Assembly (NCBI RefSeq): GCF_012999535.1
Contig: NZ_JABBWV010000004.1
Span: 372,001-436,000, forward strand
Direction: 5' to 3'
Source of the DNA: Microbispora sp. H11081
GTDB taxonomy: Bacteria > Actinomycetota > Actinomycetes > Streptosporangiales > Streptosporangiaceae
Length of the DNA stretch: 64,000 nt
Numbering within the stretch: the stretch's first letter is position 1; every line of letters starts with the position of its first letter. The position numbers were made by a program, and so were the translations under genes. A model generated the notes under the pieces. It was not told where the DNA came from. It saw only the letters and a list, made by a program, of their open reading frames with translations, and did not search any database. This document shows positions 40,048-61,400 of the stretch, in pieces.

Positions 40048-40491
40048 ATGCCTGTGTCCGGTTCTCGTTCCACTCTGAAGGTCGCGTCCGCGGTCCACGG
40101 CGCCGCCGTCGTCGTGCGCGTGGAAGGGGACCTCGACGCCGGCACCGTGCACCTGCTCCACGACGAGTTGCAGCGGGTCTGGGAGTCGCCGGAGGCATCC
40201 GTCCTGGTGATCGACGTCGCCGGGATCATGTTCTGCGACTCGCGCGGCCTGAGCGAGCTCATCTCCGCGTTGCAGCGGGGCCAGGCCATGAACGTCCGGC
40301 TGATCCTCAGCGGCGTGCAGGGCGTGCTGCACCGGGTGCTCACGATCACCGGGCTGCGCAACGTCTTCGAGCGGCACGACACGGTCGCCGAAGCGCTCAG
40401 CCAGGCCGCGGACGCCGGTCCGCGCCGCCCCAAGCCCGGCGACTCCGACGCCGGCTCGGGCGGTCTGTACGAGACCGCCGGCGATCGCTGA
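40048..40491 (+). CDS. STAS-domain anti-sigma factor antagonist 1
   Basis: A 147-aa protein with the SpoIIAA/RsbV fold (VVVRVEGDLDAGTVHLLHDE, then VLVIDVAGIMFCDSRGLSEL). The Ser of CDSRGL is the expected phosphorylation site that controls binding to an anti-sigma kinase. A 35-residue polar C-terminal tail is extra. I preferred ATG 40048 because GGGAG lies five bases upstream; GTG 40042 is possible. No anti-sigma kinase or sigma gene is adjacent. Confidence 0.85.
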   Translation: MPVSGSRSTLKVASAVHGAAVVVRVEGDLDAGTVHLLHDELQRVWESPEASVLVIDVAGIMFCDSRGLSELISALQRGQAMNVRLILSGVQGVLHRVLTITGLRNVFERHDTVAEALSQAADAGPRRPKPGDSDAGSGGLYETAGDR

Positions 40492-40598
40492 GCCGCCCGG
40501 GATCGCGTCACCGGTCCTCGAAGCCGGATTGCCTTGCCTCTCCTCTCCTGCCGGGGTAATTAGAGGTGTAACTTCTCTGTAGATCTTCCGTAGGGGGA

Positions 40599-53811: not shown

Positions 53812-54903
53812 TCAGATCCGGCCGATGTCGGCGGGCAGGTCGAGGGCGAGCACGTGGTCGAAGTGGAGGAAGGTCTCGAACTTGGAGCCCGGCGTGACCG
53901 ACTCGTCGGCTTCCAGGTCGCGCAGCAGGCGCAGCGCCTCCGGGGTGTCGAGGTCGTCGTCCAGTGCCCGCTGGACGCGCTCGGCGTAACCGCCGTCGAT
54001 CGGGCGGCTCGGCGATTCCGCCCATTCGGCCACCCGTCGCCGGAGGCGGCGCAGTTCCTCGTCGGCGGCGCGGAGCGCGTCCCATGTGAGGTCGACCGGC
54101 CGCCGGTAATGGTGCTGGAGCAACGCGAGCCGTACGGCGAGGGGGTCGAGGCCGGCGGCGGCGACGCCGGACAGCGAGATGACGTCGCCGGTGCCGGCCG
54201 GGCGGCCGTCGAACAGCAGGCGCCCGGAGTGTGCCCAGCGGGCGGCGGCCTCCTGACCGGTCGCGGCGTTCGACTGCGCCCGCGCCCTCTCGTGGTGGGG
54301 GAAGCACAGGTCGGCCGCGCCCACGTACAGGTCGAACCGTGTGCCGAGGAACCGCAGCGGCGTGGCCGAGCACTCGATGTCACGGCCGGGGAGCCCGCGG
54401 CCCCAGGGCGCGTGCCACACGGCCCCGGCGCCGTTGCCCGTCGAATCCTTCCGGGGCTCCCAAAGGGGCCAGTCGGACACCGCGCCCTGCGTGCCGGAGA
54501 TGTCGCCGTACGCGGGGTAGGAGGCCGCGTCGAAGAACACCGCACCCTCGGGGGTCGCGTAGGCGTGGCCGCGCTCGATGAGCCGGCCGATGAGCTCGAC
54601 CACCAGGCCCATGGTCTCGCTGGTCCTGGGGGAGTGGTCGGGAGCGCGCATGTTGAGCGCGAGCGCGTCGGCGTCCAGCGAGGCCCCCTCTCCGTCACGG
54701 AGGTCGGAGACGTTGCGGCAGGCGAGCACCAGCAGGCCGGACCGCTCGGCGACGCGGCGGACCAGGTCGGCGAGCAGGGCGGGGCGTAGGTCGGCGAGAC
54801 CGGCGGTCTCGTGCGCGGTGCAGGTGTAGACCCGCAGGGTCCGCGCGCCGGTGGGGGCGGCAGGCACGACCTGCCGGGTCAAGGTGTCGTGGAGCCGCAA
54901 CAT
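53812..54903 (-). CDS. Degenerate cysteinyl-tRNA synthetase-like protein
   Basis: A 363-aa protein collinear with CysRS (MLRLHDTLTRQ, RVYTC, RGHAYATPEGAVFFDAASYP, PWGRGLPGRDIECSATPLRF, LCFPHHERARAQS). It ends before the anticodon-binding domain. Against E. coli CysRS it keeps Cys28, the Cys of DIECS (178 here) and the first His of PHH (203), but the fourth zinc ligand Glu is Ala207. The HIGH motif is gone (TAHETAGLADL) and KMSKS reads DVISLSG. ATP activation is therefore unlikely while a cysteine-size pocket may remain. It is too altered to be MshC. It follows the sigma-like gene by 43 bases on the same strand. Confidence 0.82.
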   Translation of the reverse strand: MLRLHDTLTRQVVPAAPTGARTLRVYTCTAHETAGLADLRPALLADLVRRVAERSGLLVLACRNVSDLRDGEGASLDADALALNMRAPDHSPRTSETMGLVVELIGRLIERGHAYATPEGAVFFDAASYPAYGDISGTQGAVSDWPLWEPRKDSTGNGAGAVWHAPWGRGLPGRDIECSATPLRFLGTRFDLYVGAADLCFPHHERARAQSNAATGQEAAARWAHSGRLLFDGRPAGTGDVISLSGVAAAGLDPLAVRLALLQHHYRRPVDLTWDALRAADEELRRLRRRVAEWAESPSRPIDGGYAERVQRALDDDLDTPEALRLLRDLEADESVTPGSKFETFLHFDHVLALDLPADIGRI

Positions 54904-54946
54904 GGTCCGAGCCTATGTGCTGCCCCCGACATGCCTTCACCCGCAG

Positions 54947-56812
54947 TCAGGTCAGGAATGTCAGGATGTCGCGGTCGCCTCGGTCGCGCAGGCGGTCGAT
55001 GACCTCCTCGCGGGCCACCCCCTCGGGCAGGCCGATCCTGGCGCCGATGAGCCGCAGGCCCTCGGCGTCCGACGCCACCGGAGCGGTGTACCCGATGAGG
55101 TGCAGCGCCTGGTTGATCGCGGGCAGCGCGGCCCCCGAGGCGGGCAGGAAACGGGTCAGCAGTTCGCCGCCGTCGGAGACGGTGAGGAAGACGTGATCGC
55201 CCTCGGACGCGTTGTACTCGGCCAGCACGTGCCTGATCGAGCCGATCGTCGGCTGGTTGTGCCAGCTGATCACCACCTCGCCCGACGCGGTGGAGGCCGT
55301 GAGCTGGCCGCCGGGCGCCATGCCGAGGTGCGCGGCGAAACCGGTCGGCAGCGGGGAGCCGGAGCCGCGCAGGTGCTCGGCGTTCACGTCCACCCGGTGC
55401 CACCAGCGGCCGTCCCTGCTGCGGAAGCAGCGGCGGGTCATCGACACGTCACGGCGCGGCTGATACGGCTCGGCCTGGTCCTGGGCGGCCACCCTGATGT
55501 AGCCGCGCTGTGTCCGCTCGAACCCGGGTCCTCCGGCGTACGCCCTGATGGAGCTCTCGCTCACGTCGTAGCGGGAGGTCAGGTTGTCCACCACCGTGCT
55601 CACGGACGCCTCACCGCCGGCGCGCTCGATCTCGCGGGTGATCATCTCCCGGATGCCGAGGTACTCGTCGCCGCCCCAGCGCCGCAGGCCGTACTTGCTG
55701 CGGTCGAGCCGGATGAACCGCTCGTCGGAGGCGAGCTGGTTGCGGATGCCCACGAGACTGTAGTCCTCGCCGATGCGCGTCTGGATCTCCTCGGGGCTGA
55801 GCGGCGAGCGGACCACCGTCAGCACGGCCTCCGTCTTGTCGCCCATGCTGCGCGGCCAGGGGACGACGTGGCCGTCCAGTACGCGCAGGTGCGGCACGGA
55901 CGCGAGCCAGCGCTCGGCGACGTCCTCCCTGACGCCGAGCTGGGCGACCAGGGAGACCGCCTCGTCGAGCGGCCGGGGACCGTCGGCGAACAGTTGCCTG
56001 GTCTTCTCCCTGAGCTCGTCCGCGCCGCCGGAGACGAGCCAGCCGTCCGCCTGCTCGTACCCGGTCAGCAGCGTACGGACGAAGCGCCAGGCGGGGATGG
56101 CGAGCGTGCTCAGCTCGGTGCGGTGCCACGGCACGGCCGCCGTGAGGTCGTCGGCGGGCACGGCGGAGCCGAGCCGGGTGCGCAGCCAGGCCAGGTGGGC
56201 GTTCAGCGGCGCGGCCGCCGGGCCGTTCAGCCAGTGCATCACGTGGTCGCGCAGGTCGCGCTCTATCTGCCTGATGCGCTCGCGGGTGACGGAGAAGCGC
56301 TGGGCGAGCTCGTCCAGGGTGGCCCGCTGGGAATGGCCGGTCTGCTGGGAGGCGTCGAAGTAGAGCCGGTCCCGCGCGATGGCGCGCTGGCGGTCGTCCA
56401 GCCGGGCGAAGATCTCGTCGATGATCTCGGGCATCGGCCGCTCTGGGACGGCGGGCTGGACCGGGGCCCCGGTGGGCTCGCGGGCCGGCTCGGTGGCCAG
56501 CAGCTTGTCGATCACGTCGACGTACAGCTCGTGGACGCTCTCCCGCGGGCCGGGCGTCTGGAGGCTCTCCTCGGGGTGGGTGAACCTCAGCAGCGGCAGG
56601 ATGTCGCCGAGGACCAGGTGCGCCCAGCAGGCGATGGTGAGGTCGGCGAGCCGGGAGGCGACCTGGCCGGTGCCCACGGCCGCGCAGGCCCGGTCGAGGG
56701 GAAGCGCCTGCCACCACGCGTCGGGAAGACCGGGGTCGCTCGCGATCGGCTCCACCTGGCTGGGCGCGGTCCAGCGCAGCGGCGGCACGATGTCGCTAAG
56801 GCTCAGGTTCAT
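54947..56812 (-). CDS. Sigma-region-4-like DNA-binding protein, long paralogue
   Basis: A 621-aa protein of no named function. Residues 1-105 form a helical domain shared with the protein at 58932 (MNLSLSDIVPPLRW start). Residues 164-187 are a sigma-70 region-4-type HTH (ATLDELAQRFSVTRERIRQI). Residues about 325-442 contain two winged-helix-like units (LSPEEIQTRIGEDYSLVGIR; EASVSTVVDNLTSRYDVSES). Residues 459-621 are a second shared domain (RRCFRSRDGRWWHRVDV, GDHVFLTVSD, ending RDRGDRDILTFLT). There is no sigma region 2, so it is not a sigma factor. It is 55 bases downstream of the helicase gene on the same strand. Confidence 0.8.
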   Translation of the reverse strand: MNLSLSDIVPPLRWTAPSQVEPIASDPGLPDAWWQALPLDRACAAVGTGQVASRLADLTIACWAHLVLGDILPLLRFTHPEESLQTPGPRESVHELYVDVIDKLLATEPAREPTGAPVQPAVPERPMPEIIDEIFARLDDRQRAIARDRLYFDASQQTGHSQRATLDELAQRFSVTRERIRQIERDLRDHVMHWLNGPAAAPLNAHLAWLRTRLGSAVPADDLTAAVPWHRTELSTLAIPAWRFVRTLLTGYEQADGWLVSGGADELREKTRQLFADGPRPLDEAVSLVAQLGVREDVAERWLASVPHLRVLDGHVVPWPRSMGDKTEAVLTVVRSPLSPEEIQTRIGEDYSLVGIRNQLASDERFIRLDRSKYGLRRWGGDEYLGIREMITREIERAGGEASVSTVVDNLTSRYDVSESSIRAYAGGPGFERTQRGYIRVAAQDQAEPYQPRRDVSMTRRCFRSRDGRWWHRVDVNAEHLRGSGSPLPTGFAAHLGMAPGGQLTASTASGEVVISWHNQPTIGSIRHVLAEYNASEGDHVFLTVSDGGELLTRFLPASGAALPAINQALHLIGYTAPVASDAEGLRLIGARIGLPEGVAREEVIDRLRDRGDRDILTFLT

Positions 56813-56867
56813 GCAGGTCCAACCGGCAAGGGGAATATATCCGCAGTTCAGACTATGGGATCCGAAG

Positions 56868-58928
56868 TCAGGCCGGGATGAAGGGACTTGCTCGGCCGGA
56901 ATAAGACACGTAGAGCAGTTCCCCCGCCCGCGTACACGCCACGTAGAGCAGCCCCCGTTCGCGTTGCAGGTCGTGCGCCCGGGCCGTCGGGTCCTCGGCG
57001 GCCGGGGTCAGCGCGTCCGGCGCCGGCACGATTCCGTCAGCCACGCCTATCACGGCCACGCGACGGAATTCCAGCCCTTTCATGCCATGAAGGGACGTGA
57101 CTTTGACCGTGATGCCCGCTTCGCGTAAGGCGGTGCGGGCGGTACGCACGAGGTCTGTGGTGCGTGCGGCCACCGCGATCTGGGCGGTCGGCACCCCCTC
57201 CTCCAGCCATTCGGCCACCGTGGAGACGAGCCCGGCGATCTCCGCCTCCGCGCTCACGTACCCGCGCACCACCGGACGGGGGCCGTGGTCGAGCGCGCGG
57301 TAGCCGTACATCGCGGCGTTGCCCGCGACCAGGCCGTCGGCGGGCCCGCCGCCCCTGAGCCGCACCGCCCACGAGAGGATCTCGGCGGGCAGCCGGTGGG
57401 AGATCTTCAGATGGAAGCGACGGGCGGGGATGCCGACGTCCGCGAGCGCCACCCGCGCGTCGAACATCCGCTGGTGCGGGTCTCCCAGGATGAACAGGTC
57501 GTTCGGGGCCGGGGGGACCGCCGCCCGCAGCAGCCGCCACTGCGCCGGGTGCAGGTCGTGCGCCTCGTCCACCACGATGTGCCGGTACGGCTCGCGCCCC
57601 GGCGCCTGGTCACCCAGCAGGTCGCCGACGGCCCGCCCGAGCAGGCCCGCCGCCTCGGAGGCGAGCTGGAGCAGGGTGCGCCGGCCTGACTCGCGCAGCC
57701 GCCGTATGACGTGCTGGACGGCGTCCCACACCGTCGTCCTCGCGTCGGCGTCCAGGCGGACGCTGCGGCCGGGCCGGGCGGCGACCTGGTATTCCTCCAG
57801 TGTGCGAAGGTCCTGCGCGAGGATCACCTGCTCCCACTCCCGCAGCAGGAAGGCGCTGCCGAAGCGCCCGACGGCGGCCTCCTGCCACAGGCCCGCGAGG
57901 TCGTCGGAGGAGACGAGCGCCGGGGCGCGGCCCTCCGCCTCGGCGACGATGCGGTGGGCGAGCCTGTCGACATTGCCCACCTCGACGCGCTTGCGTACCG
58001 CCTCGTCCTCGATGATCATGTCGAGCCGCGCGGACAGCTCGGTCGCGAGGCCCTGCGAGAACGTGACGAGCAGCACGGGACCGGTGGCCGCGCGGGCCAG
58101 CAGGGCGGCCCGGTGCAGCGCGATGACCGTCTTGCCGGTGCCCGCGCCCCCGGTGATCAGCACCGGCTGCTCGTACGCGGGCCAGGTGGCGTACGTGTGC
58201 TGCGGCGGGTACAGGAACGTGCACCAGGTGGGCAGCGTGAGGATGCGGTCGAGATCCGCGGCGTCGGCGGCGAACACGGCCCGGTCCGGGCTGCGCCGCA
58301 ACGCCGCGTGCAGGTCCTCGGCGTCGACCTCCTCGGTGACACGGGAGCGGCAGGCGTCCAGTTCGCGCCAGGCCGCGGCGAGCGACCCGCCGCGGGCGAG
58401 CGCCGCGAGCGGCGCGTACTGGCTGTGCGGGAGCATCGGCTCCACGGCCGCGAGATGGGACTCCGACGTCATCAGCCGCAGCAGCGGCAGCAGGCGGGCG
58501 TCGACGCCGATGTGCAGCAGGTCGGTGTCGCACCAGTCCTCGAAGAGCGGGCGCCCGCCCCGCTCCGACGCGCGGCGCAGGGCCGGCGCGATCCGCTCCA
58601 GCGCCTCGGCGTCCCAGACCTCGACGATCCCGATCGCCGTGTTCACGCCGACCCTGTGCCGCTGGGCGTACGACCACGCCTCGGCGTCGGGGAGCACGGT
58701 GAGCAGCCAGTAGACGTCCTCCTGCCGCACGACCACCCCCCGGTGGCGGTCGGCGAGCCGGAGCGTGGCCACGCGGGGATCGCGGCTGTTGCGCACCCTC
58801 TCCGGGTGCGGCGCGGCGGACACGTTCAGCAGGAACCGGCGTACGGCGACCGCGACGTCGCCGCGGACGGGCCGGGTGAGCGCGCCGAGCCCGCGCAGGA
58901 ACTCCGGGGAGATCGCGAGCCGGGGCAT
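56868..58928 (-). CDS. UvrD/Rep-like superfamily 1 helicase with extra N-terminal domain
   Basis: A 686-aa protein. Residues about 20-105 (RRFLLNVSAAPHPERVRNSR, DVYWLLTVLPDAEAWSYAQR) look like a RelE/ParE-type small beta-alpha domain. A linker of about 130 residues leads to motif I GGAGTGKTVIALHRAALLA (260-267 for the P-loop), motif II VVDEAHDLHPAQWRLL, motif III ILGDPHQRMFDARV, motif IV KISHRLP and the C-terminal motifs TSLHGMKGLEFRRVAVIGVA and LYVACTRAGELLYV. ATPase and helicase motifs look complete, but it lacks most of the 1B/2B bulk of true UvrD. It starts 3 bases after the stop of the short paralogue. Confidence 0.87.
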   Translation of the reverse strand: MPRLAISPEFLRGLGALTRPVRGDVAVAVRRFLLNVSAAPHPERVRNSRDPRVATLRLADRHRGVVVRQEDVYWLLTVLPDAEAWSYAQRHRVGVNTAIGIVEVWDAEALERIAPALRRASERGGRPLFEDWCDTDLLHIGVDARLLPLLRLMTSESHLAAVEPMLPHSQYAPLAALARGGSLAAAWRELDACRSRVTEEVDAEDLHAALRRSPDRAVFAADAADLDRILTLPTWCTFLYPPQHTYATWPAYEQPVLITGGAGTGKTVIALHRAALLARAATGPVLLVTFSQGLATELSARLDMIIEDEAVRKRVEVGNVDRLAHRIVAEAEGRAPALVSSDDLAGLWQEAAVGRFGSAFLLREWEQVILAQDLRTLEEYQVAARPGRSVRLDADARTTVWDAVQHVIRRLRESGRRTLLQLASEAAGLLGRAVGDLLGDQAPGREPYRHIVVDEAHDLHPAQWRLLRAAVPPAPNDLFILGDPHQRMFDARVALADVGIPARRFHLKISHRLPAEILSWAVRLRGGGPADGLVAGNAAMYGYRALDHGPRPVVRGYVSAEAEIAGLVSTVAEWLEEGVPTAQIAVAARTTDLVRTARTALREAGITVKVTSLHGMKGLEFRRVAVIGVADGIVPAPDALTPAAEDPTARAHDLQRERGLLYVACTRAGELLYVSYSGRASPFIPA

Positions 58929-58931
58929 CGG

Positions 58932-60521
58932 CTATCCCAGCAGGGTCAGCAGGTCGCGGTCCCCGCGTTCCCGCAGCCGCGCGATCAGCTCGGGCCGTTC
59001 CACGGCCTCGGCGAGCCCGACGCGCGTCGCGATCACCTGCTCCGCCTGCTCGGGCGTGCCGCTCGGCGTGGTGAAGCCCACCAGGCGCAGGGCCCGGCTC
59101 GCCGGGTCGCCGCCGTTCGCCGCGGGCAGGTGCCGTACGCGCAGCATGCCCTCCTCGGACAGGGTCAGGAAGATGTGGCTGCCCTCCTCCGCCGAGACCT
59201 CGCCGAGAATCCGCTGGAGGGAGCCCAGGGCCGGCCGCGTGTGCCAGGAGAGCCCGACCTCTCCCGCCGCGCTGAACACCGTGCGGTCCTCGCCCGGTGC
59301 GAGGCCGATGTAGGCGGCGAAGCCGCTCGGCAGCGGCACCTCGACGCCGTCGAGGTGCTCGCCAGACACGTCCACCCTGAGCCACCATCTGCCGTCCGGC
59401 TGCCGGAAACACCGCCGGGTCAGCGCCACGTCCTTGAGCCCGCCCCGCGGCCGGGCCGCCTTCTGGGCGCGTAACTGCGGCACGCTCTCCAGCCACTGCC
59501 GTGCCACGTCGGGACGTACGCCGAGAGTGGCGATCATCTCCAGCGCCTGGGAGACGGTGGGCGGACGCTCGGCGGAGGAGATCAGGTGCCGCGTCCTGTC
59601 GCGCAGTTCCTCGATGTCGCCGGCCACGAGCCAGTCGCAGGAGAGGCGGTGGCCGGGGAGCGTGGCGAGCACGAACCGCCAGGCGGGCACCTCAAGCGAG
59701 CGCAGTTCGCGCTCGTGCCACTCGGCGGCCGTGAAGAACAACTCTTTGGGGACCGCGGCTCCCAGCGTGTCGCTCAGGTGGGCGAGGTGCTCGTTGTACG
59801 GCCTCGCCTGGGGCAGCGAGAGCCACCGCGCCAGCCGGTCGCGCAGGGCCGCCTCCAGTTCGTGGATCACTACGGGAGGGACGGCCAGCAGCTTGGCCAG
59901 TTGGTCGGGCTCGGACGGCTCGGCGGTGAAGACCCGGTTCTGCGCCACCATCCAGGTCTGGTCGTCCAGGTCGCCGAACGCCGCGTCGATCAGCGCGGGC
60001 AGGTCATGCTCGGGCGACGGCTGCTCCTCCTGCGGCTCCTCCCGAGGCTCCTCTCGCGATTCCTGAGGCGATTCCTGAGGAACCTCCTCGGGGGGCATCT
60101 GCTCTGGGGACATCTGCTCGGGGGACATCTGGGCGAACACGGCGGTGAAGAGAGCCGCGAGCACCGGGCGGGCCTTGACGAACGGCTGGTCGGCCAGTTC
60201 CCGGCCGGACAGCGCGAGCAGGCCGTGCCACGATCCCGCCCGGTCGAGCGCGATCGCGACCTGGGGATCGTCGGCCTCGTCGGGGTCCAGCACGTACAAC
60301 GCGGGCAGCACGTCGCCGACGGCCGCCGCGGGCCAGTGGTCGAGCGCGAGCCCGGTGAGCAGGTCGCCGAGCGCCTCGGCGTCCAGGACGGCGAGCACGC
60401 GGTGCAGAGGGAGCGTCCGCCACCAGGCGCCCGGCAGGCCGGGGAGGCCGGTCAGCGTGGTGATACGGGCAGCGTCACTCCAGCGCAGCGGTGGCACGAG
60501 GTCACTCAGGCAGAAGTTCAT
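58932..60521 (-). CDS. Sigma-region-4-like protein, short paralogue with degenerate HTH
   Basis: A 529-aa paralogue of the protein at 54947. Shared parts are residues 1-80 (MNFCLSDLVPPLRW, LPGAWWRTLPLHR), the middle (PYNEHLAHLSDTLGAAVPKE; VPAWRFVLATLPG) and the C-terminal domain from about 368 (RRCFRQPDGRWWLRVDV, ending RERGDRDLLTLLG). The HTH region reads LAKLLAVPPVVIHELEAALR and has lost the RERIRQIE recognition helix, and both winged-helix units are missing. Residues 131-170 are a repeated MSPEQ/QEEPRE linker. It is the first gene of the helicase operon. I chose ATG 60521 with GGGGA upstream. Confidence 0.8.
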   Translation of the reverse strand: MNFCLSDLVPPLRWSDAARITTLTGLPGLPGAWWRTLPLHRVLAVLDAEALGDLLTGLALDHWPAAAVGDVLPALYVLDPDEADDPQVAIALDRAGSWHGLLALSGRELADQPFVKARPVLAALFTAVFAQMSPEQMSPEQMPPEEVPQESPQESREEPREEPQEEQPSPEHDLPALIDAAFGDLDDQTWMVAQNRVFTAEPSEPDQLAKLLAVPPVVIHELEAALRDRLARWLSLPQARPYNEHLAHLSDTLGAAVPKELFFTAAEWHERELRSLEVPAWRFVLATLPGHRLSCDWLVAGDIEELRDRTRHLISSAERPPTVSQALEMIATLGVRPDVARQWLESVPQLRAQKAARPRGGLKDVALTRRCFRQPDGRWWLRVDVSGEHLDGVEVPLPSGFAAYIGLAPGEDRTVFSAAGEVGLSWHTRPALGSLQRILGEVSAEEGSHIFLTLSEEGMLRVRHLPAANGGDPASRALRLVGFTTPSGTPEQAEQVIATRVGLAEAVERPELIARLRERGDRDLLTLLG

Positions 60522-60602
60522 GCATTCCCCATCACTCACAAAGACCAGTCCATAGTCTGGCAAATCGCCCCCGCTGTGGTGGAGGTTCGGGGCTCACACA
60601 AG

Positions 60603-61400
60603 TCAGCGGCGTTCGGCCGCGAAGCGGAGGCGGACGTAGTCGGCCATCCAGCCGGTCTCCCGGCGCAGGGCGGGGGCGGCCAGTTCGTTGACCCGGCGGA
60701 GCAGCGGCTCGACGGCCGCCGGGGGGATCCGGCCGAGCAGAGAGCCGGCGAACATCCTGACCCAGTCGGCCGCGCCGTTCGGGCACTCGTCGAGGGGGGT
60801 GGGGCGGTCGAAATACTCCAGCAGGCGGACCGTGAAGCCGCCCTTCTCCAGGCGGAGGGCGTACTCGGCCGGGCTGGGGAAGTACCACGGCAGTTCGGGC
60901 TCGGGCAGGCCGTACTCGCGCCAGGCGGTGAACACGGCGGCGGTCAGGGCCGCGCAGTTGCCCGCGCCGCCCATCTCGGCGACGAACCTGCCGCCCGGCC
61001 GCAGCGCCTCCCGCACGCAGCCGATGACCGCGTCGGGGTCGCGGCTCATCCAGTGCAGCGCCGCGTTCGAGAACACCGCGTCGTACGGATGGGCGACGGT
61101 GAAGTCGTGGCCGTCGCCCACCGTGAAGTCGAGCCCGGGATGGTGCGCGATGGCCTGTTCGATCATGGAGTGGGAGCCGTCGATGCCGAGGACGTGGGCG
61201 CCGCGCGCGGCGACGTCGGCGGTCAGCACGCCGGTGCCGCACCCGAGGTCGAGCACCCGCTCACCGGGGCGAGGGTCGAGCAGTTCCAGGAGCGGCGCAC
61301 CGTGGGCGGAGACGTATCCGAAGGAGCTGTCGTAGGCGCGAGCGTTCCATCGGGTGAGACTGGGAGTTTCGTACCTCAAGATCGGCTCGCATTCTGACAC
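60603..61400 (-). CDS. Class I SAM-dependent methyltransferase (trans-aconitate methyltransferase-like)
   Basis: A 265-aa protein with SAM motifs VLDLGCGTGVLTADVAARGA (about residues 49-68), GIDGSHSMIEQA, and the acidic/NAALHW segment SNAALHWMSRDPDAVI typical of Tam-like enzymes. It should methylate a small acid; it is not a DNA methyltransferase. The GTG start has AGGG six bases upstream. It lies 81 bases upstream of the helicase operon on the same strand and may or may not belong to it. Confidence 0.85.
   Translation of the reverse strand: MSECEPILRYETPSLTRWNARAYDSSFGYVSAHGAPLLELLDPRPGERVLDLGCGTGVLTADVAARGAHVLGIDGSHSMIEQAIAHHPGLDFTVGDGHDFTVAHPYDAVFSNAALHWMSRDPDAVIGCVREALRPGGRFVAEMGGAGNCAALTAAVFTAWREYGLPEPELPWYFPSPAEYALRLEKGGFTVRLLEYFDRPTPLDECPNGAADWVRMFAGSLLGRIPPAAVEPLLRRVNELAAPALRRETGWMADYVRLRFAAERR

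Follow-up and report, generated by a model that had tools for sequence, protein, structure and literature searches.

The delta subunit (RpoE) of RNA polymerase (RNAP) consists of a folded N-terminal domain followed by a disordered acidic tail and occurs in complexes with HelD on RNAP (PMC7749165), and the helicase PcrA binds RNAP through a C-terminal Tudor domain (PMC8318588). In PglW of type-2 BREX, a domain resembling the C-terminal domain of the RNAP alpha subunit (alpha-CTD) precedes winged helices (PMC12839542). Here we analyse a 64,000-nucleotide stretch of the genome of Microbispora sp. H11081 (contig NZ_JABBWV010000004.1, positions 372,001 to 436,000; the window), in which the gene for a UvrD-like helicase (HEL) is flanked by genes for two paralogous proteins, SHORT and LONG. 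SHORT-HEL-LONG is a true module of Streptosporangiaceae, conserved as a block, and probably works where transcription meets DNA upkeep. The unit is named in none of Pfam, NCBIfam and PADLOC, and the literature searched held no description of it, which is no proof that none is in print.

A conserved three-gene module at a fixed chromosomal site

An initial annotation of the window had listed four minus-strand open reading frames (ORFs) separated, in the order SHORT, HEL, LONG and CYS (a gene resembling cysteinyl-tRNA synthetase, CysRS), by gaps of 3, 55 and 43 bases, and this layout was confirmed at the same positions (Table 1). Scanning 84,980 species genomes with LONG returned 112 relatives. 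The best 80 of them were analysed further and, from their genus names, presumably all belong to Streptosporangiaceae. An order-level sample of 200 genomes contained a family match in 160 and LONG at E = 0 in 97. The 80 loci and the 200 genomes overlap in species and are thus not independent, and close relatives are repeated; as trimmed, the 80 HEL-LONG gaps comprise 50 distinct sequences and the 77 regions upstream of SHORT comprise 63. ORFs in the fetched loci were called by a simple GC-frame script.

HEL lies directly upstream of LONG in 94 of the 97 LONG-bearing genomes, so that the gene neighbourhood, whose conservation had been put forward as a check, is conserved: the helicase and the two paralogues form one block across Streptosporangiaceae. 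The three remaining genomes comprise one locus split across contigs (G461), one in which the position of the HEL match is not among the matches listed (G447) and one deletion (G388, counted as one genome with locus L019). Of the 80 loci, 76 have a complete SHORT; contig ends truncate it in two (L014 and L067), and it is absent from two (L019, and L062 at a contig end). HEL is full-length in 78 (its start not being fixed in L075); L019 retains a 3' remnant of it, and in L062 it falls beyond the contig end. The SHORT-HEL gap is 3-14 bp in all 75 measured loci.

The trio occupies a fixed chromosomal site. The ferredoxin, binding-protein and methyltransferase genes of the window are each matched in 77 loci out of 80. 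In 76/76 measured loci, the end of the methyltransferase match is 69-171 bp upstream of SHORT; this gene may share a transcript with the trio. The names used for flanking genes here and below (psuG/psuK, suf, fdxA, SBP, methyltransferase, kinase) are presumed from the sequences.

CYS had also been listed with the unit, and a place for it there is not supported. Six genomes (L196-L201) lack the trio at this site and keep the methyltransferase gene near a CYS-like gene, the match to the window CYS being confined to the C-terminal part. By our own ORF calls, 9, 10 and 16 bases separate the two ORFs in L196, L199 and L200; one gene lies between them in L197, the matches are about 1.5 kb apart in L198, and the CYS-like match of L201 has the opposite strand. 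A seventh trio-less site (L202) has the methyltransferase match only. Because trio-less sites keep CYS near the methyltransferase, CYS is an old neighbour, and it was rejected as a component of the unit SHORT-HEL-LONG. HEL relatives are found elsewhere in two of the six genomes (G306 and G360). The view of CYS as a 'dead' enzyme is reasonable, since the protein falls in the CysRS family with 170 bits against a cysS cut-off of 340 and a string search of it found neither HxGH nor KxSKS. Where listed (L196, L197, L199 and L200), the CYS-like ORFs at trio-less sites encode 209-225 amino acids (aa); the window CYS and its counterparts in L196-L201 represent a CysRS relative encoded near a conserved methyltransferase.

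SHORT and LONG are paralogues with different central regions

The paralogy of SHORT and LONG, proposed together with common N- and C-terminal domains, is clear (blastp E 2e-53), with 34% identity across a 360-column N-terminal alignment and 51% across 178 C-terminal columns. LONG matches Sigma70_r4 (Pfam PF04545) at aa 136-186 with E 1e-6 and 28.2 bits, exceeding the gathering score of 24.1. The corresponding helix of sigma factors recognises the -35 element and binds the beta flap of RNAP. As predicted, one paralogue keeps the sigma-4 helix and the other does not: TRERIRQIE is present in 81/81 LONG proteins, and a helix of this type was found by pattern in none of 11 SHORT rows. No Pfam match to sigma region 2 was detected in LONG, and matches of NCBIfam sigma models are confined to approximately aa 70-193, all far under their cut-offs.

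The further prediction of two winged helices in LONG stands in part. Ten of 15 alignment members match HARE-HTH (a helix-turn-helix, HTH, family that includes RNAP delta and restriction enzymes) in the first unit at E up to 1, the best at E 6e-6, and the window protein itself scores under the cut-off; the second unit resembles the first weakly (hhalign E 6e-4, probability 29%). The best PDB profile match of the whole winged-helix region is RNAP delta (E 0.024), with a second delta at E 1.1. In SHORT, we found no winged-helix match and no HTH match near cut-off in Pfam, the nearest being P22_Cro (E 0.14, 12.4 of 30.2 bits).

The name 'short' suits the protein of this genome; SHORT (513-1130 aa) exceeds LONG in 53 of 76 loci, because of its linker. 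Across the 76 other loci, this linker has a median length of 210 residues and a median net charge of -26 (range -90 to +3), and its net charge is -5 or lower in 67.

HEL has the motifs of an SF1A helicase and is neither a PcrA nor a HelD

The assignment of HEL as UvrD-like, a member of helicase superfamily 1A (SF1A), was upheld by its Pfam UvrD-helicase match (E 2e-17) and by its motifs, with GTGKT kept in 76, DE[AG][QH]D in 75, GDPHQR and KGxEF in 78 each and CTRA in 76 of 78 proteins. Its best NCBIfam match is pcrA (E 2e-20), and its best PADLOC profile is GajB (E 5e-25), matched in three stretches, the PADLOC output giving no cut-off. Membership of PcrA was rejected: HEL reaches 72.8 of the 911 bits required and ends about 18 aa past motif VI, therefore leaving no room for a C-terminal Tudor domain and lacking an RNAP-binding tail. 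Membership of HelD was rejected likewise, at 21 bits (E 1.8e-4) against a cut-off of 1051; three other genes of this genome score 399-624 bits on the same profile, likewise under the cut-off.

The HEL core is compact. Walker A and motif VI were both located in 74 proteins and lie about 400-410 aa apart in 48 of these; in the other 26 the distance is 320-330 aa, a short form belonging to Nonomuraea and its close relatives. Such HEL proteins (L055 and others) are without about 75 aa between Walker A and motif II (window aa ~341-415), and their motifs are mostly kept. HEL further carries an extra, unnamed N-terminal region of about 230 aa. A ParE/RelE identity for it is a weak lead: PF24732 gave matches in 1 of 18 proteins (E 0.007) and in 2 of 6 relatives (E 0.09 and 0.14), all sub-cut-off, and PDB profiles returned no ParE/RelE-type match at the HEL N terminus.

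Two conserved DNA elements lie in the gaps of the module

The HEL-LONG gap is conserved beyond what synonymous sites of LONG reach, 33 of 48 alignment columns being at least 90% identical (80 sequences, 50 different) compared with 9 of 77 invariant fourfold codons. The same level is attained by 29 of 159 columns in the alignment of sequences preceding SHORT, and the best 24-column stretch contains 19 of them (77 sequences). Patterns derived for the S-element, the L-element and a second L-element give 74, 75 and 70 matches in the two gaps with one mismatch allowed, and the S- and L-element patterns have none outside the gaps when the 80 loci and the window, 3.4 Mb of strand sequence in all, are searched. 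A half-site pattern has 115 matches in the gaps versus 8 elsewhere in the same search. The half-site (10 bases before SHORT and 9 before LONG; a single mismatch permitted) is present in both gaps in 45 of 76 loci, on the SHORT side only in 27, on the LONG side only in 3 and in neither in 1, and its orientation is always opposite.

In the other fetched loci, searched with two mismatches for the elements and exactly for the half-site, plausible S- and L-element copies occur in L186 alone, a trio-bearing locus, and the remaining 10 matches look like chance. The own genome contains one exact copy per element, at this locus, with two additional three-mismatch matches to the S-element, and reversed-pattern controls gave none; a larger regulon is therefore unsupported in this genome by the two pattern searches. 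We considered other causes of the conservation. A known RNA family in the region was rejected (0 Rfam matches up to E 1), as was an RNA structure behind it (consensus folding energies of -2.3 and -1.3 kcal/mol, for elements that hardly vary). A canonical TTGACA/TATAAT promoter was also rejected, none being seen by eye. Conserved locus-specific elements with a common inverted half-site suggest self-regulation, and the simplest reading is that LONG probably autoregulates the module through them.

Table 1. Coordinates of the module, its domains and elements, and adjacent genes in the window
Feature	Position	Strand	Description
SHORT	58932..60521	-	529 aa, ATG start; shared N- and C-terminal domains; degenerate paralogue
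SHORT linker	59997..60131	-	aa ~131-175, 45 aa, net charge -12
HEL	56868..58928	-	686 aa, SF1A UvrD-like helicase
LONG	54947..56812	-	621 aa; N domain, sigma-70 region 4 HTH, tandem winged-helix region, C domain
LONG sigma-70 region 4	56255..56407	-	aa 136-186
LONG winged-helix region	55475..55876	-	aa 313-446; first unit HARE-HTH-like
S-element GATTTGCCAGACTATGGACTGGTC	60543..60566	-	non-coding, upstream of SHORT, conserved, imperfect dyad
L-element CATAGTCTGAACTGCGGATATATTCCCCTTGCCGGTTGGACC	56816..56857	-	within HEL-LONG gap, conserved
Half-site CAGACTATGG, HEL-LONG gap copy	56849..56858	+	inverted relative to the copy before SHORT
Half-site CAGACTATGG, copy upstream of SHORT	60550..60559	-	
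Methyltransferase-like gene	60603..61400	-	neighbour outside the unit; presumed label
CYS	53812..54903	-	neighbour outside the unit; CysRS/MshC-like protein

An alternative TTG start of SHORT at 60563, upstream of the ATG, also lies in open frame. Elsewhere in the window, ARAGORN calls a tRNA at 40427-40528 with an undetermined four-base anticodon (cagc), probably a false positive.

The trio is one branch of a wider family with defence links

In a midpoint-rooted tree of 55 proteins, distant LONG relatives, NLONG, LONG, SHORT and a clade of PAR3, NOC and two G344 genes are separated, with SHORT adjoining the latter clade (94/96); with this rooting the tree does not give a direction for the loss of domains. 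The same genome carries PAR3 as its third paralogue (L089:8257-10428, on another contig), and NLONG and NOC are what we take, from genus names, to be 'Nocardiopsis-type' LONG proteins and singletons. PAR3 has a neutral linker rich in P, Q and A, and 17 of 18 linkers in the PAR3/NOC/G344 clade have net charges between -9 and +5, the remaining one reaching -32. TRERIRQIH is found in 5 of 6 NLONG proteins; among nine distant LONG relatives, TRER[IV]RQ occurs in six, SRERVRQ in two and neither in one. No HTH match near cut-off was obtained for PAR3 of this genome or NOC of L159. An alpha-CTD was matched by Pfam in two of the four distant LONG relatives scanned whole (E 0.001 and E 0.19, both sub-cut-off).

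The initial annotation had held that paralogues occurring without the helicase in most genomes would speak against a joint system. Such genes are common in the wider family: no HEL match was found beside PAR3 and its relatives in 12 loci (L089, L170-L177, L180, L181, L187), beside NOC genes in five (L159-L161, L182, L183) or beside NLONG in six (L147, L148, L164, L165, L178, L179), and G344 has two family genes, no LONG and no HEL match at E 1e-50. Several PAR3 neighbourhoods contain what we take to be pseudouridine-catabolism genes, and the NOC genes presumably lie near suf-like (Fe-S) genes. Within the SHORT and LONG clades themselves, the linkage to HEL has a single real exception (G388). 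Family members thus exist without a helicase, and the trio represents one specialisation among them.

Enrichment in defence islands, likewise suggested earlier, does not hold for this locus, fixed as it is beside the ferredoxin and methyltransferase genes, and does hold for several distant LONG relatives. A class-level sample of 296 genomes contained a LONG-type match in 40, 10 of them outside the family of the window, and all 10 regions were fetched. PADLOC scans of neighbours covered six of these ten regions (L149-L151, L154, L155 and L157) and two of the six NLONG loci (L148 and L165). Strong hits lie near four distant LONG relatives: a GmrSD-type Orf5 and a type II methyltransferase in L149, PbeC in L150 and L151, and SspD/PbeA/PbeC in L154. 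A weak DrmD match is near L157, and the two neighbours scanned in L155 had none. NLONG lies near BREX genes in both L165 (PglZ, BrxD, BrxHI) and L148 (BrxHI). The LONG-type protein near PbeC in L151 (L151:6087-9977) is a 1298-codon open frame whose N-terminal Cys/His repeats look HNH-like by eye.

Among plasmid records, 18 have a match, nine of them from Mycolicibacterium, and a Microbacterium plasmid carries UvrD-type helicase and exonuclease genes, then the relative, then a hypothetical gene and a DUF4011 gene. A phage origin was rejected, 50,697 phage records giving no match at E 1e-5.

The HEL relatives read in L203-L212, ten loci in all, have no LONG or SHORT match beside them. One of these loci has an OLD/GajA-type nuclease gene 25 bp from the HEL-like helicase gene (L204:5691-9663), a pair that appears Gabija-like with an extra N-terminal region on the helicase. 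In the own genome, L091:350-9176 encodes a DruE-like helicase of 2180 aa (PADLOC E 8e-93); next come a HEL paralogue with 36% identity and a kinase-like gene, and the set is possibly Druantia-related.

A working model and its alternatives

We tentatively favour, at somewhat short of an even chance, the reading that the trio is one functional unit, a domesticated chromosomal motor for DNA or transcription surveillance that would act as loader and motor at promoter-like DNA or stalled transcription complexes. LONG would be the targeting subunit, its sigma-4 helix and delta-like HARE winged helix directing it to promoter-like DNA, RNAP or both. SHORT most likely pairs with LONG or with a partner of LONG, as its N- and C-terminal domains are common to both paralogues, and its acidic linker could act like the delta acidic tail, competing with nucleic acid. 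HEL would be an ATP-driven translocase, brought to its substrate by LONG and SHORT, that clears or remodels stalled transcription complexes, R-loops or abnormal DNA. The trio may set its own synthesis via the two conserved elements and their inverted half-site, probably bound by LONG. Complex formation, binding of RNAP or a -35 element, direction of action and autoregulation are all predicted here from sequence comparison. A bolder version of this reading is less probable, and we consider it no more than possible: Streptosporangiaceae would almost universally have a so far undescribed helicase machine coupled to transcription, whose dedicated loader, formed by RNAP-accessory folds (sigma-4, delta-like HARE and perhaps alpha-CTD in some relatives), takes an SF1 motor to promoter-like sites or stalled RNAP, with parts common to defence islands and its own two-element DNA switch.

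Several observations weigh against the surveillance motor at transcription sites. HEL is not a HelD, and the niche of RNAP recycling may be filled by the HelD-closer genes elsewhere in the genome. The HARE-HTH match of the window LONG (E 0.001, 19.8 bits) stays under the Pfam cut-off of 25.9, and the PDB delta match of the same region is weak. SHORT linkers are not clearly acidic in 9 of 76 loci and are net positive in four of these, and the half-site in both gaps is limited to 45 of 76. In G388, a true deletion leaves LONG intact, HEL only as its 3' part and SHORT gone. BREX proteins also carry sigma-like and winged-helix domains as DNA-binding parts (PMC12839542), and the GajB match of HEL, taken with the defence-near LONG relatives, favours an origin in DNA surveillance over one at RNAP.

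The most probable alternative is a domesticated anti-invader system in which HEL is a GajB-like sensor or translocase, LONG scans DNA with several HTH units and SHORT regulates, still limiting phage or plasmid DNA as a core gene set. GajB as the best PADLOC profile, the nuclease gene 25 bp from the L204 helicase, the HEL paralogue following a DruE-like helicase gene and the LONG relatives near PbeC, SspD/PbeA, GmrSD with a methyltransferase, and BrxD/BrxHI/PglZ are all consistent with it. The unit nevertheless contains no nuclease or modification enzyme, is fixed in site and present family-wide rather than patchily gained and lost, and has no match in the phage records; LONG is moreover well conserved, with a median identity to the window of 76% over the 80 loci, against 57-94% for three neighbours. 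We regard this alternative as possible, somewhat less probable than the favoured reading.

It is unlikely that HEL is a helicase for DNA repair or replication conflicts with LONG and SHORT serving as operon regulators only and doing no physical work with it. The conserved locus-specific elements in both gaps, the wealth of HTH units in LONG and the occurrence of the LONG/SHORT family without a helicase elsewhere would fit such a division; two large paralogues with conserved non-HTH domains (LONG aa 1-100 and 450-620) exceed what autoregulation needs, LONG is intact in G388 after loss of most of HEL, and SHORT, PAR3 of this genome and NOC of L159 have no HTH match near cut-off. An operon of convenience, with three unrelated functions co-inherited, is very improbable: wider family members do occur without the helicase, but HEL precedes LONG in 94/97 genomes, with SHORT 3-14 bp before HEL, and six related genomes have none of the three genes at the site, although HEL relatives occur elsewhere in G306 and G360.

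If the proposed transcription-coupled motor is real, sigma- and delta-like modules steer a helicase machine that is core to a whole actinobacterial family. The worlds of RNAP recycling and defence would then be linked, since LONG-type proteins occur at a fixed chromosomal site here and close to Dnd/Ssp, GmrSD and BREX genes elsewhere. The exact three-gene block, the natural trio-less sites, the natural partial deletion in G388 and the two defined DNA elements offer handles for tests.

Comparison with known systems

TasH/TIGR-Tas was rejected as a chance PDB match through the HTH. In common with a sigma factor, LONG has region 4 above the gathering score; it has no region-2 match in Pfam. Region 4 also matches the C-terminal part of MzaA of the MZA system (E 5e-9 in NCBIfam, 8e-5 in PADLOC), but only about 60-75 aa are in common, at 35.7 of 800 bits, and no further MZA profile matches the four proteins. 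Some distant LONG relatives may resemble PglW of type-2 BREX in having an alpha-CTD-like domain and then winged helices, whereas no PADLOC PglW match was obtained up to E 1 for LONG or E 0.1 for the nine relatives.

As regards Gabija (GajA-GajB), the closest defence-library profile of HEL is GajB, and a HEL relative is paired with an OLD/GajA-type nuclease in L204. The module differs in its partners, LONG and SHORT, and in that the trio and its conserved flanks are without GajA or another nuclease: the GajA (AAA and TOPRIM nuclease) profile matches none of the four proteins, the flanking genes being judged by eye.

Like PcrA/UvrD, HEL has the SF1A motifs and pcrA as its best NCBIfam match; unlike them, it scores 72.8 bits against a cut-off of 911, has about 400 aa from Walker A to motif VI and no Tudor room, and adds an N-terminus of about 230 aa. 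From delta-HelD of Bacillus, the trio is set apart by a HARE fold and an acidic segment that sit in separate proteins, an added sigma-4 helix, and a motor with 21 bits on the HelD profile in a genome that has HelD-closer genes. Like delta-HelD, it combines an SF1 helicase-like motor with an acidic segment and a HARE-type winged helix (weak by profile here). The trio may thus work like delta-HelD or PcrA, while belonging to neither.

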